Assembly (NCBI GenBank): GCA_947165025.1
Contig: CAMUYQ010000001.1
Span: 248,001 to 312,000, forward strand
DNA length: 64,000 nucleotides
DNA from: an uncultured Lachnospiraceae bacterium
GTDB taxonomy: Bacteria; Bacillota; Clostridia; Lachnospirales; Lachnospiraceae
Reading direction: 5' to 3'
Shown here: positions 26,163-52,233 of the stretch, one piece after another
Layout of the letters: the number at the start of each line of letters is the position of its first letter
Position numbering within the stretch: position 1 is the first letter of the stretch
Made by a program: the position numbers and the translations under genes
The notes under the pieces: generated by a model
Seen by the model: only the letters and a program-made list of their open reading frames with translations
Database searches by the model: none
Told to the model about the DNA's origin: nothing

Positions 26163-26678
26163 CTATCTCTTGGAATCCGTCGATCCGAACCCTCCGTTTC
26201 GTACTTCATCAACAACATCATCAACCGTGATGCCGTAAGGCATGAATATACCCTGTGCAAAGCCTCCGCCGGCAGCAACATCAACAATCCTGCCTTCGTT
26301 GGAGTCGTTGGTTATCTTGATGAAGATGTGGCCTTCGTTGTCGGAATCATAGTAGTCACTGTCTATTACGCCTACCGTATTGTTAAGCTGAAGCCTGAAC
26401 TTAAAGCCCAGACCGCTTCTCGGGAACACCATGAGAACCCAGTCTGCCTCCATCTTCGCCCTGATCCCCGTCGGGATCTTTATCGTCTGTCCGGGCTCAA
26501 GATGAATATCAACCGGCGTATAGAAATCATATCCCGCCGATCCGCTCGTGGCCCTTTTCGGAAGCTTTATCGAATCATATACCTTCCTGACTTCGTCGTC
26601 ACTTTCCCCGAAATCGTCCTTATACGCACCCGCAAACTGCTCGTAACTTACCTTCTGGAACTGTGCTATCCTCTGCAT
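26163..26678 (-). CDS. dut: dUTP diphosphatase (trimeric dUTPase family)
   Basis: This 171-residue enzyme hydrolyses dUTP to dUMP, keeping uracil out of DNA and supplying dTMP synthesis. Conserved motifs run in order: SGSAGYDFY, PRSGLGFK, NNTVGVIDSDYYD with the catalytic Asp, and the C-terminal GGFGSTDSKR that closes over the site. About 30 extra N-terminal residues precede motif 1. AGAGG lies 7 bases before the ATG. It follows nrdD-nrdG, fitting a deoxynucleotide supply operon, but a structured element on the opposite strand separates it from nrdG. Confidence 0.9.
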   Translation of the reverse strand: MQRIAQFQKVSYEQFAGAYKDDFGESDDEVRKVYDSIKLPKRATSGSAGYDFYTPVDIHLEPGQTIKIPTGIRAKMEADWVLMVFPRSGLGFKFRLQLNNTVGVIDSDYYDSDNEGHIFIKITNDSNEGRIVDVAAGGGFAQGIFMPYGITVDDVVDEVRNGGFGSTDSKR

Positions 26679-26694
26679 GTCATACCTCTCTTTT

Positions 26695-26850
26695 TACTAA
26701 ATAAGGTGCGTGGGTATAATTGTCCCGAGAAAACCTTGTGAAGGCGTCTGCGCTTGACGAGGTATTTCACGAGTCTAGCGTCAGTTACGCCGGAACAGGA
26801 GCGCGAGCGCGTTTTCGAGGGATTATTATATCCACGCACCTTATATAGTA
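26695..26850 (+). ncRNA. Structured RNA-like element, copy 1 (unassigned family)
   Basis: The outer stem pairs 26695-26720 with 26825-26850, 25 of 26 positions. One pair is G-U on the plus strand but would be A-C on the minus strand, favouring plus-strand transcription. Inside come TCCC/GGGA, a GA/GA internal loop, GAAAAC/GTTTTC, then GGCGT/ACGCC and CTGCGC/GCGTCAG (with one bulged T) enclosing the core TTGACGAGG...CGAGTCTA, then a hairpin GGAGC-GCGA-GCGC with a GNRA loop. GTGAA (26738) can also pair with TTCAC (26766), a possible pseudoknot. Copy 2 at 51311-51451 shares the core and the architecture. The element fills the nrdG-dut gap, antisense to both genes, and abuts the nrdG stop. No plus-strand promoter was identified. 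Confidence 0.65.
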
Positions 26851-27360
26851 TTAATAGTAGTCGTCACAATACGCCACCGGCACCTCGGGGGTGTCAGAAG
26901 CGAGAGTTGCTGCAACATCAATCACGCGCTGGTTCGCGCTTCCCTTCCACAGCAGCTTAACATCCCGCTCCTCTATATGAAATTCCCCGTCCACCAGTAC
27001 GTCAATAAGCTTCATTAACGGATCCTCGTACAGGTTCTCCCATACGTCACCGGTATATAACCATATATTCTTGTTCGGGAACTTTTCTCTTATTTCCTGT
27101 GCGAGCGCCTTCACGTCCGGATAATTGCTGCAGTACATCGGATCCCCGCCCGAGAAAGTTATCCCGCTGATGTAGGGTTTCCGAAGTTCGGCAAATATCT
27201 CTTCTTTGGCATCTTCATCGAACGGAATGCCACCGTTTGCATCCCATGTCGACGGATTCTGACAGCCTTCACAGCAATGAGAACATCCCGCAACCCAGAG
27301 AACGACTCGAAGCCCGTCACCGTTGAGCATGTCGTCCTTCGTGATATTATGATATCTCAT
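26851..27360 (-). CDS. nrdG: Anaerobic ribonucleoside-triphosphate reductase activating protein
   Basis: This 169-residue radical SAM enzyme generates the glycyl radical on NrdD. The 4Fe-4S site is C26-x3-C30-x2-C33 in GCSHCCEGCQNP, followed by a TFSGGDP motif for SAM binding. Its ATG overlaps the nrdD stop as TAATG. Small size and context make the activase assignment firm. Confidence 0.95.
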   Translation of the reverse strand: MRYHNITKDDMLNGDGLRVVLWVAGCSHCCEGCQNPSTWDANGGIPFDEDAKEEIFAELRKPYISGITFSGGDPMYCSNYPDVKALAQEIREKFPNKNIWLYTGDVWENLYEDPLMKLIDVLVDGEFHIEERDVKLLWKGSANQRVIDVAATLASDTPEVPVAYCDDYY

Positions 27361-29717: not shown

Positions 29718-30506
29718 ATGGCACTTGCCGGAGCATTCAAAGCCACACTCAAGAACGGTAAAACGTACTACAGAAGTTCCGTTACATACCGTAACAAACA
29801 CATCAGTCTCGGAAGCTACGACACTGAGGAGAAGGCCCACGCGGCATACAAGGTGGCCAAGGATATAATCGCCAATAATGCCATTACGATCGACGCGTAC
29901 CGTATGGATACGCCTCTTGATTTCGACAAGTTCGTTACCGTGATCAATTTCAGGGACAACAATGTTTACATCAAGAACCCGATCTATCTTGAGAAGACAT
30001 ACTTCTCCTACTATCTGACTCCCTCTGTCATATTCAAGTTTGATATAGACGATCTGTTCTATTTTGCATCACACAAGATAAGCAGGAGAAACGGACATCT
30101 GTGGGTAGCAGACTATGGCATGCAGGTCAACCTCTACAGCAGATACGGGATCAAGCCCCATGCTGTTTTAAACCGCGACTACAGATTCATAAACGGGGAC
30201 CGTTATGACTTCAGATATGACAATATAGAGATAATCAACCGATATACGGGCGTGTATGCGGTAAAAAGAAGCGTATATACTAAGTACAGCGCCCGGATAC
30301 TCGTTAACGGACTGTATACTATAGGAACATACGATACGGAGACCGAGGCGGCCATCGCATATAACAAGGCAGCCGACATAATCAAGAAAGCGCGCCCTAA
30401 CAAGAACTTCAGGCAGAACTACATAGAATCGCTGTCGGCAAAGGAATACGCGCTCATGTACATCAAAGTTCCGATATCCGACAGGATATTTGCCGACTTC
30501 ACGTAA
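29718..30506 (+). CDS. AP2-domain protein derived from an AP2-HNH homing endonuclease
   Basis: This 262-residue protein carries two AP2-like DNA-binding segments: residues 17-52 (YRSSVTYRNKHISLGSYDT) and 188-222 (YSARILVNGLYTIGTYDT). Between them, residues 145-175 resemble the HNH nuclease of AP2-HNH homing endonucleases (RFINGDRYDFRYDNIEI, compare DHINGDxxDNRxxNL). The catalytic His is replaced (D154-Y155), so nuclease activity is unlikely. A good RBS (GAGAGG) precedes the ATG. No intron or mobile element is seen around it. It may be a domesticated DNA-binding regulator. It is divergent from nrdD and shares its promoter region. Confidence 0.7.
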   Translation: MALAGAFKATLKNGKTYYRSSVTYRNKHISLGSYDTEEKAHAAYKVAKDIIANNAITIDAYRMDTPLDFDKFVTVINFRDNNVYIKNPIYLEKTYFSYYLTPSVIFKFDIDDLFYFASHKISRRNGHLWVADYGMQVNLYSRYGIKPHAVLNRDYRFINGDRYDFRYDNIEIINRYTGVYAVKRSVYTKYSARILVNGLYTIGTYDTETEAAIAYNKAADIIKKARPNKNFRQNYIESLSAKEYALMYIKVPISDRIFADFT

Positions 30507-50626: not shown

Positions 50627-51292
50627 TCAGATATCGAGTTTAAGCTGTATTTCCTCTGCCGCTTCACGCTTGAATTCCTCCAGGCGGTCAGGTGCTATAT
50701 CGGGCAGATCCTCTATCGACTTGACGCCGAATGAACGCAGGAACTGTTCCGTCGTTCCGAACAGGAGCGGACGGCCGGGCGCATTAAGCCTTCCGAGCTC
50801 CGTGATAAGCCCGAACTCGAGAAGCCTGTTGATCGGATGATCGCATGACACACCGCGGATCTTTTCAACCTCTGCTCTTGTGACCGGCTGTTTGTACGCT
50901 ATTATTGAAAGCGTCTCAAGTGCAGTATCAGACAGATGCATGTTCTTCGGGATCTTGGCAACCTTGATGAGATACTCATACATCTCTGTCTTCGAGCACA
51001 TCTGTACAGCATTGTCGAGTTCAACGATAGTAAGACCGAAATCCTTGTTGCGCTCAAACTTCGCTTTCATCTTCTCGATGACTTCTTTCGTCTCGTCCTC
51101 ACTAAAGCCTATCGCTTCGGAGAGCTTTTTGATCTCGACGGAGTCTCCCATCGCAAACAGGATCGCGGAGATCGCTGCCTCGGGATGCTCTGCACGAACA
51201 GTTTCCTCGTGCTGCTCTTCCTCTGCCGCCGGCTCTGCGATGTCCATGTCGTCTATATTCTCTTTTAATGATTCTTCAAATTCTTTCTTCAT
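50627..51292 (-). CDS. scpB: Segregation and condensation protein B
   Basis: This 221-residue protein forms the SMC-ScpAB condensin with ScpA. It has the paired winged-helix signature region with SDTALETLSIIAYKQPVTRAEVEKIRGV and the GRPLLFGTT motif. The N-terminus carries an unusual acidic extension of about 40 residues before AISAILFAMG. The ATG at 51292 is the likely start, because a TTG upstream (51340) would begin inside the structured leader. The RBS is weak (ACAGG), so the upstream RNA element could influence translation. Confidence 0.93.
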   Translation of the reverse strand: MKKEFEESLKENIDDMDIAEPAAEEEQHEETVRAEHPEAAISAILFAMGDSVEIKKLSEAIGFSEDETKEVIEKMKAKFERNKDFGLTIVELDNAVQMCSKTEMYEYLIKVAKIPKNMHLSDTALETLSIIAYKQPVTRAEVEKIRGVSCDHPINRLLEFGLITELGRLNAPGRPLLFGTTEQFLRSFGVKSIEDLPDIAPDRLEEFKREAAEEIQLKLDI

Positions 51293-51310: not shown

Positions 51311-51462
51311 CGCCGCATGTATATTTACACATTTGTTCAAAAAGGCGCTTTCGCTCCTTTCCGGACGTCACGTTACTAGGCTCGAAAAAACCTCGTCAAG
51401 TAACAACGTCCTCCAAAGCTTTTCTCACAAACGGTAAACATGCATGCGGCGGTGTTTGTGAG
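51311..51462 (-). ncRNA. Structured RNA-like element, copy 2, in the scpA-scpB gap
   Basis: On the minus strand the outer stem pairs 51451-51434 with 51328-51311 in 17 of 18 positions. Inside lie CGTTTGT/ACAAATG, a GA/GA internal loop, AAAAG/CTTTT, then GGACGT/ACGTCC and GTTAC/GTAAC around the core TTGACGAGG...CGAGCCTA, and a hairpin GGAGC-GAAA-GCGCC with a GNRA loop. Core and layout match copy 1 at 26695-26850, while the helix sequences differ but keep pairing. Upstream, CTCACAAAC (from 51462) can pair perfectly with GTTTGTGAG (to 51424), which competes with the inner stem. The element ends 18 bases before the scpB ATG. Confidence 0.7.
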
Positions 51463-51486: not shown

Positions 51487-52233
51487 TTAAGCTGCAAGCG
51501 ATGTTATCATGATATCATCGAAAAGGTTGTCCTGCACGATACGTATCTTGCCGACCTTCATCATCTCGAGCATGACAAGGAACGTGACCACGATCTCCAT
51601 CTTCGTGGGCTGCGCCTCGAGAAGAGCACGGAACGAAAACTTCTTGTGGGTCCTGACATACATCTCGATGTACAACTGCTTCTCTTCAAGATTGATCTCA
51701 TCCTTCTCGATGTTACCGAACTTACTTCTGACGGGATCGATCTTGTCCTTCTGCTTGCGTACTACCGAACGGAATATCTCGTTAAGTCTCGTCAGGTCGA
51801 TATCACCGACAAGCTTCTCATAGTCGATCGGCTCAACGTATTCCATGACCTCCTTCGGAAGTGTCGCAGTCTTGTATACGTTCCTGACAGCATCGATCTG
51901 TCTGTCCTTAAGTTCGAATGACATATACTTGTACATCTTGTACTCGATGAGCTTCTCAACAAGCTCTGCTCTCGGATCTTCCTCTTCGCCGTCTTCATTG
52001 ACCTCGGCAGGAAGGAGCATCTTTGCCTTGATATCAAGAAGCGTTGCTGCCATCACAAGGAACTCGCTCATGATATTAAGATCCTCGATCTCCATCTGCT
52101 TCAGATAATCAAGGTACTGGTCGGTAATCAGAGAGATCGGTATGTCATAAATATCCACCTTGTTCTTCTCTATAAGATGAAGGAGAAGATCGAGCGGACC
52201 TTCGAATTTTTCAAGTTTAACGTTTATCGACAT
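51487..52233 (-). CDS. scpA: Segregation and condensation protein A
   Basis: This 248-residue kleisin bridges the SMC dimer with ScpB. The N-terminal FEGPLDLLLHLIEKNKVDIY is diagnostic, as is the C-terminal winged-helix VTFLVMLEMMKVGKI. It starts 17 bases inside the end of the metallophosphoesterase gene, indicating translational coupling. The gap to scpB is about 195 bases and is filled by the structured element. Confidence 0.95.
   Translation of the reverse strand: MSINVKLEKFEGPLDLLLHLIEKNKVDIYDIPISLITDQYLDYLKQMEIEDLNIMSEFLVMAATLLDIKAKMLLPAEVNEDGEEEDPRAELVEKLIEYKMYKYMSFELKDRQIDAVRNVYKTATLPKEVMEYVEPIDYEKLVGDIDLTRLNEIFRSVVRKQKDKIDPVRSKFGNIEKDEINLEEKQLYIEMYVRTHKKFSFRALLEAQPTKMEIVVTFLVMLEMMKVGKIRIVQDNLFDDIMITSLAA

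Follow-up and report, generated by a model that had tools for sequence, protein, structure and literature searches.

A dispersed non-coding repeat family in Lachnospiraceae, with a conserved core, probably folded as RNA, inside mostly copy-specific palindromic arms

The window, that is, the whole analyzed stretch of 64,000 nucleotides from an uncultured Lachnospiraceae bacterium, contains between its dut and nrdG-like genes a palindromic segment that the initial annotation described as a structured RNA candidate of this gap, at 26695-26850. This raises the question of whether the segment is an RNA of a single locus and, if not, what kind of element it represents. It proved to be one copy of a dispersed repeat family, each copy consisting of a core of ~95 nt in self-complementary inverted-repeat arms that mostly differ between copies. 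The two window copies and their neighbors are as follows; R1 is a covariance model built from 24 pattern-found copies of the source genome.

26701..26844, plus strand: element copy 1, whole, in the nrdG-dut gap (R1 match G000:C1:274709-274845, 130.7 bits)
26701..26726, plus strand: 5' arm of the outer stem of copy 1, a locus-specific inverted repeat
26818..26844, plus strand: 3' arm of the outer stem of copy 1
26727..26817, plus strand: conserved core of copy 1, comprising a GA/GA loop, an AAAAC/GUUUU helix, and a three-way junction from which a long arm and a short GNRA hairpin extend
26751..26780, plus strand: apical hairpin of copy 1 with tandem G-A pairs (CGC-TTGACGAGG...CGAGTCTA-GCG), the highest conservation in the element
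26801..26808, plus strand: small hairpin of copy 1, GNRA loop GCGA at 26803-26806
51311..51451, minus strand: element copy 2 in the scpA-scpB gap, on the gene strand, GNRA loop GAAA at 51349-51352 (R1 match G000:C1:299309-299444, 124.2 bits)
26163..26678, minus strand: dut (dUTPase; PF00692), flanking copy 1
26851..27360, minus strand: nrdG-like activase (PF13353, PF04055; the name nrdG is that of the initial annotation), flanking copy 1
50627..51292, minus strand: scpB-like gene on the downstream side of copy 2; its ORF as listed starts at 51340, within the element
51487..52233, minus strand: scpA-like gene upstream of copy 2, from sequence reading

The names scpA and scpB are assumed from the sequences. 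Elsewhere in the window, a 262-aa ORF at 29718-30506 (plus strand) matches the AP2 domain weakly, at 22.7 bits against a Pfam cut-off of 33.3.

The observation from which the analysis started is confirmed. Copy 1 has the outer stem, the GA/GA internal loop, the nested helices, and the GNRA hairpin ascribed to it, the single wobble of its long stem is G-U on the plus strand as stated, and the second element reported at 51311-51451 is present on the minus strand with the helix order of copy 1. A pseudoknot proposed between 26738-26742 and 26766-26770 is not conserved, being complete in 1 of the 24 source-genome copies. The search with the covariance model yielded many further copies in the source genome and its relatives, and their very strong covariation supports the earlier reading as a selected RNA structure. 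In the alignment A2 (the 24 pattern-found source-genome copies, aligned without structure information), 88.2% of cells are paired versus 70.2% in shuffles, and 35 of the 45 pairs vary in both partners. The alignment A4 comprises R1-aligned copies of the genus (107 rows from 100 fetched loci, 106 distinct copies after removal of one duplicate), including all but two of the 46 source-genome matches and all but a few genus copies. Here 92.1% of cells are paired versus 63.0% in shuffles, both partners vary in 44 of the 45 pairs, and covariation scores 0.729 versus 0.192 in shuffles; A4 is fitted to the model, so that its pair statistics lean toward R1, and A2 is unfitted.

The strand of the structure is fixed, as it had been chosen initially, by two RNA-like constraints. 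First, the loop of the small hairpin, read from the alignment columns, follows the GNRA rule established for RNA in 105 of the 106 distinct A4 copies (GAAA 28, GGGA 26, GCAA 24, GAGA 21, GCGA 4, GGAA 2, and GCGC once). A search restricted to the GNNA pattern in the named-genome set (A3) found such a loop in 55 of 62 long rows, 54 of them GNRA, and none in 7, counts that differ from the column read-out, which was used. Second, tandem G-A pairs are exchanged with standard ones: among the 106 copies, both are G-A in 40, both are paired in 46, 14 are mixed, and six are other. G-U prevails over A-C in the whole structure (69 versus 20) and in the core (143 versus 44, in the fitted alignment), both counts being partly inherited among related copies. 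For the outer arms alone, no significant strand bias was found in a stricter symmetric arm alignment of 98 of the 110 genus elements, 12 having been dropped for low score (29 G-U versus 21 A-C, p = 0.32); a looser alignment gave 154 versus 110. The RNAfold-based arm counts, 26 versus 3 and 36 versus 2, were dropped as biased by the energy model. Thus the argument for RNA depends mostly on the core, and the complementarity of the arms could come from template switching during replication. Judging from these sequence comparisons, the conserved unit is probably a folded RNA.

The initial annotation could place the element in no known RNA class. Rfam release 15 had no match at the element at gathering score in the whole window or in 16 loci from other genomes, and none at E <= 1 in eight genus loci; at E <= 10, both window copies gave merely chance matches to mir-3015 (20.2 and 15.5 bits versus a cut-off of 59). 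A known class was rejected on these Rfam results. No account of the element was found in the open-access papers searched, judged at the level of search results; candidate RNAs of human microbiomes were surveyed in 2021 (PMC8040213), and the supplements of that study could include it.

The element is dispersed in the genome well beyond chance expectation. The core pattern TTGACGAGGN{3,12}CGAGYCTA occurs 24 times in the source genome, and 0 times when read backwards, and R1 has 46 matches at E < 1e-9 (one of just 81 nt) and three weak ones in the 2.70 Mb of this genome. Among 61 genomes scanned at E <= 1e-3, 25 of the 37 from the genus and none of the 24 from other families of the order were positive. 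Besides the source genome, G023 has 24 matches and the other positive genomes one to eight each, with none in 12 of the 37; some of the small counts reflect weak or partial matches, those of G009 (eight) and G036 (seven) being mostly 43-nt pieces of another repeat. A second dispersed repeat of ~240 bp, with the ends GTAACTATTCAGAACA...TGTTCTGAATAGTTAC, occurs in these two genomes (L083-L088, L307). It resembles the element in its two hairpins, which are related to the apical hairpin, and differs in having terminal repeats that look alike by eye (L085, L086, L088, L307) and in lacking the unique arms of the long form. A relative of this repeat without the hairpins follows nrdG in G009.

The apical hairpin pattern CTTRRYGAGGTNTTNTCGARYYTAG was found in eight of 391 genomes of the class, namely in eight of the 16 from the same family and 0 of the other 375. 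None of 393 phylum genomes drawn from beyond the family has it, and the reversed controls gave 0 in both the class and the phylum draws. In named genomes, at least 117 stretches matched the hairpin, and the 80 record titles among the matches listed are mostly Lachnospiraceae or genera that belong there; the remaining titles comprise several unspecific ones (Clostridium, Clostridiaceae, Eubacteriales, bacterium) and one MAG each labelled Ruminococcus and Bacteroides. A scan of 100 of these at least 117 loci with R1 gave 134 matches, 59 of them at E < 1e-9. Of 20 named genomes, 13 were positive at E <= 1e-6, the top four having 145, 127, 105, and 94 matches with up to 150 candidates scored per genome; the 145 are those of Clostridium transplantifaecale. 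The family thus appears so far in one bacterial family, the Lachnospiraceae. Carriage by plasmids or phages is disfavored by the result that the 86-base core has no blastn match in the plasmid and phage collections, with one stretch in viral_contigs matching the hairpin. On one viral contig (L287, IMGVR_UViG_2225789004_000059), about four related hairpins are clustered by eye in an apparent array of tRNA genes.

The core and the arms occur in different combinations and evolve separately. In 88 of the 110 genus elements the two arms are complementary to each other beyond the 95th percentile of swapped partners. Nevertheless, the 30 copy pairs of the source genome with core identity of at least 0.95 have a median arm identity of 0.35 (maximum 0.88), and the 39 such pairs of G023 one of 0.31 (maximum 0.68), the between-genome background being 0.28. 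Conversely, at one orthologous locus (L151/L134) the arm pairs are identical and the core identity is 0.68; for the orthologous L139/L134 the values are 0.80 and 0.59. Nine of the 28 orthologous pairs compared exceed the 95th percentile of arm identity, with L135/L150 excluded because of an alignment shift. Wholly identical arm pairs were found across genomes in three pairs, each at one shared locus. In the arms of several orthologous pairs, double changes outnumber single ones; for instance, in L129/L137 the core pairs are unchanged, and the arm pairs comprise six double changes, still paired, eight unchanged pairs, and two single changes.

Orientation varies as well. The scpA-scpB copies L131 and L153 have identical arm pairs and a core identity of 0.85, in opposite orientation. 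L137 and L160, also opposite, have a core identity of 0.96, and by eye their distances to one shared stop codon agree within ~2 nt. Their arms appear homologous on inspection, and in the model alignment the arm identity is 0.50, under the 95th percentile of 0.53. Altogether, orthologous pairs have the same orientation in 41 cases and the inverted one in 38, counts that are non-independent because loci are shared among pairs and the two-element loci L096, L116, and L124 enter both classes. The median arm identity of inverted orthologous pairs (30 rows) is 0.40 versus a background of 0.27, with several pairs at background, and in one subfamily some arms are found again at unrelated loci. Part of the inversions may thus reflect separate insertions into one gap.

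We regard these elements, with a probability of roughly 60%, as a MITE-like family of non-coding dispersed repeats, in which the conserved unit is a folded RNA and the core and arms reassort. A more specific possibility, for which L151/L134, L131/L153, and L137/L160 are the clearest cases, is that a selfish folded RNA core spreads as a cassette, swaps core types, and flips in place inside palindromic arms that are specific to the locus, so that the arms would belong to the locus and the cores to the genome; we hold this only tentatively, at odds well short of even.

A rather doubtful alternative is that the family is a palindromic repeat at the level of DNA, its arms kept complementary by template switching, with no role for RNA. 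Quasipalindrome correction is such a template-switching mechanism, and the lack of a significant strand bias in the outer arms, the presence of elements in either orientation to genes, and the excess of double over single arm changes in several orthologous pairs, such as L129/L137, are consistent with it. Against it speak GNRA loops with variable N and R in nearly all copies, the exchange of tandem G-A with standard pairs, and covariation that extends from the arms to the short core helices.

Sites of the element are occupied in some relatives and empty in others, with diverged flanks, as seen at both nrdG-dut and scpA-scpB. The nrdG gene was found in 32 of the 37 genus genomes, and of 30 loci read, two have an R1 match at E < 1e-10, those of the source genome and of G031, where the element is interrupted and on the other strand. 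At 19 loci dut follows nrdG; the two genes are 175 nt apart in the source genome, 269 nt in G031, and 2 to 145 nt in the other 17. The scpA-scpB gap is filled in the source genome, G004, and G031. In G011 it measures 5 nt, in G023 and G033 it is likewise short, and all three gaps are armless. In the short gap of G026, a 16-nt stretch matches one arm of the G031 element and is perhaps the trace of an element since lost, or an earlier state. At another locus of G004, a truncated piece of the element remains. Two G031 loci (L294, L336) have a similar insertion of ~100 nt at the apical loop. The relatives are too diverged for the comparison to define an element boundary, and with it a target-site duplication. 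The idea that the core entered a palindrome already in place was rejected for the short nrdG-dut and scpA-scpB gaps of relatives, which by eye have no such arms. However, the longer nrdG-dut gaps L291, L305, and L306 hold other small palindromes, which together with the G026 stretch makes such insertion possible in places.

Some copies occupy orthologous places across species, which fits function in place as well as mobility. It is therefore conceivable, if slightly less so than a repeat of DNA alone, that the elements are a family of non-coding RNA genes working where they stand. Every copy would then be transcribed, perhaps with a promoter of its own, and would bind one common protein, the cores being kept alike by concerted evolution. 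A core conserved whatever its orientation and different cores inside identical arms agree with this, whereas the range from 46 matches to 0 within one genus, the empty orthologous gaps, and the result that no promoter-like conserved columns were found in A1, which covers ~20 nt upstream of the arms, speak against it.

The family is indifferent to the direction of neighboring genes. By an ORF heuristic, the flanking genes are co-directional at 85 of the 110 genus elements; of these elements, 40 share the strand of the genes and 45 are opposite to it. The initial placement of the RNA opposite the genes thus holds for copy 1 and not as a rule. Of the others, 14 lie between convergent and five between divergent genes, and six are without a gene call on one side. 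Stop-free frames reaching 30 codons past both ends cross 10 of the 110, so that some elements may lie inside genes; in named genomes, an ORF longer than 150 aa overlaps five of 139 hairpin matches. Neighboring elements no more than 1 kb apart are usually arranged head to head, as in 19 of 20 pairs among the matches listed for G069 and G077 and in three of four in the genus. A role as terminator stems was rejected, as no regular T run was seen by eye past the arms among the matches listed, and a boundary consensus 5' CA-stem-GT 3' glimpsed by eye was weak when counted.

Although several copies lie, by eye, shortly upstream of likely start codons, a riboswitch-like leader regulating the downstream gene in cis is highly improbable, given antisense copies as frequent as sense ones, gaps that are empty in relatives, and no Rfam match. 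In eight species the element is found upstream of one shared gene, with the start MARRRIIAGNWK, which looks tpiA-like (L099, L147, L128, L167, L070, L169, L149, and L168; two in opposite orientation). Short hairpin forms in the Butyrivibrio records L177, L178, and L248 come, by eye, directly after the apparent stop codons of genes that resemble one another at their 3' ends, and recall intercistronic REP elements. In other genomes, the hairpin forms tandem pairs ~44 nt apart (L173, L212, L238, L253, L254, L266, and L285), some adjoining TATAAT-like sequences.

If the elements are a MITE-like family, their cores could be copied or exchanged between loci by a putative enzyme or by gene conversion, and the arms could be remade or drift locally under base pairing, aided by template switching within the palindrome. 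Since antisense copies keep the same fold, the fold would be needed at propagation of the element or in an RNA whose production does not depend on the host operon. Among candidate mobilizing genes, Y1_Tnp and RVT_1 were searched in the source genome, and neither had a match; thus a RAYT/REP origin and a reverse transcriptase origin were both rejected. RVT_1 is present in 15 of the 37 genus genomes and does not follow the number of element matches.

The nearest kind of known repeat, compared by description only, would be the bcr repeats of the Bacillus cereus group and the bacterial MITEs. Like the element, bcr1-bcr18 (of which bcr1-bcr3 are MITE-like) are dispersed and intergenic, and some have a conserved secondary structure; in two strains, mRNAs were found to contain 84 of 165 and 62 of 155 copies, respectively (PMC3446304); they differ, also by description only, in belonging to another bacterial group. 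Bacterial MITEs, which include RUP, NEMIS, Bcr1, ERIC, YPAL, Nezha, and EFAR, have terminal inverted repeats of 15-30 bp and can be mobilized by transposases recognizing them, and REPs are palindromes of 20-40 bp tagged GTAG or CGTC (PMC3733652). The element shares with MITEs its short, non-coding, palindromic, multi-copy, and mostly intergenic character and its presence or absence between relatives, with occupied and empty sites; in contrast to their shared terminal inverted repeats, its arms are mostly unshared between copies. It resembles REPs and REPINs with RAYT as a dispersed extragenic hairpin with close pairs inverted, but it is ~140 nt long with a three-way junction, and its source genome has no Y1_Tnp. 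We know of no report of copy-specific arms around an exchangeable core in bcr repeats.

Dozens to more than 100 copies occur in some genomes of this large family of gut bacteria, and the absence of the element from Rfam leaves their annotation incomplete. If the cores truly reassort and flip inside local arms, a strong RNA fold would stand sense or antisense to neighboring genes, for example dut and scpB; further neighbors, named from their N-termini, are presumably glmS or tpiA. Such reassortment and flipping would also be a mode of propagation that is not usual for MITEs or REPs.
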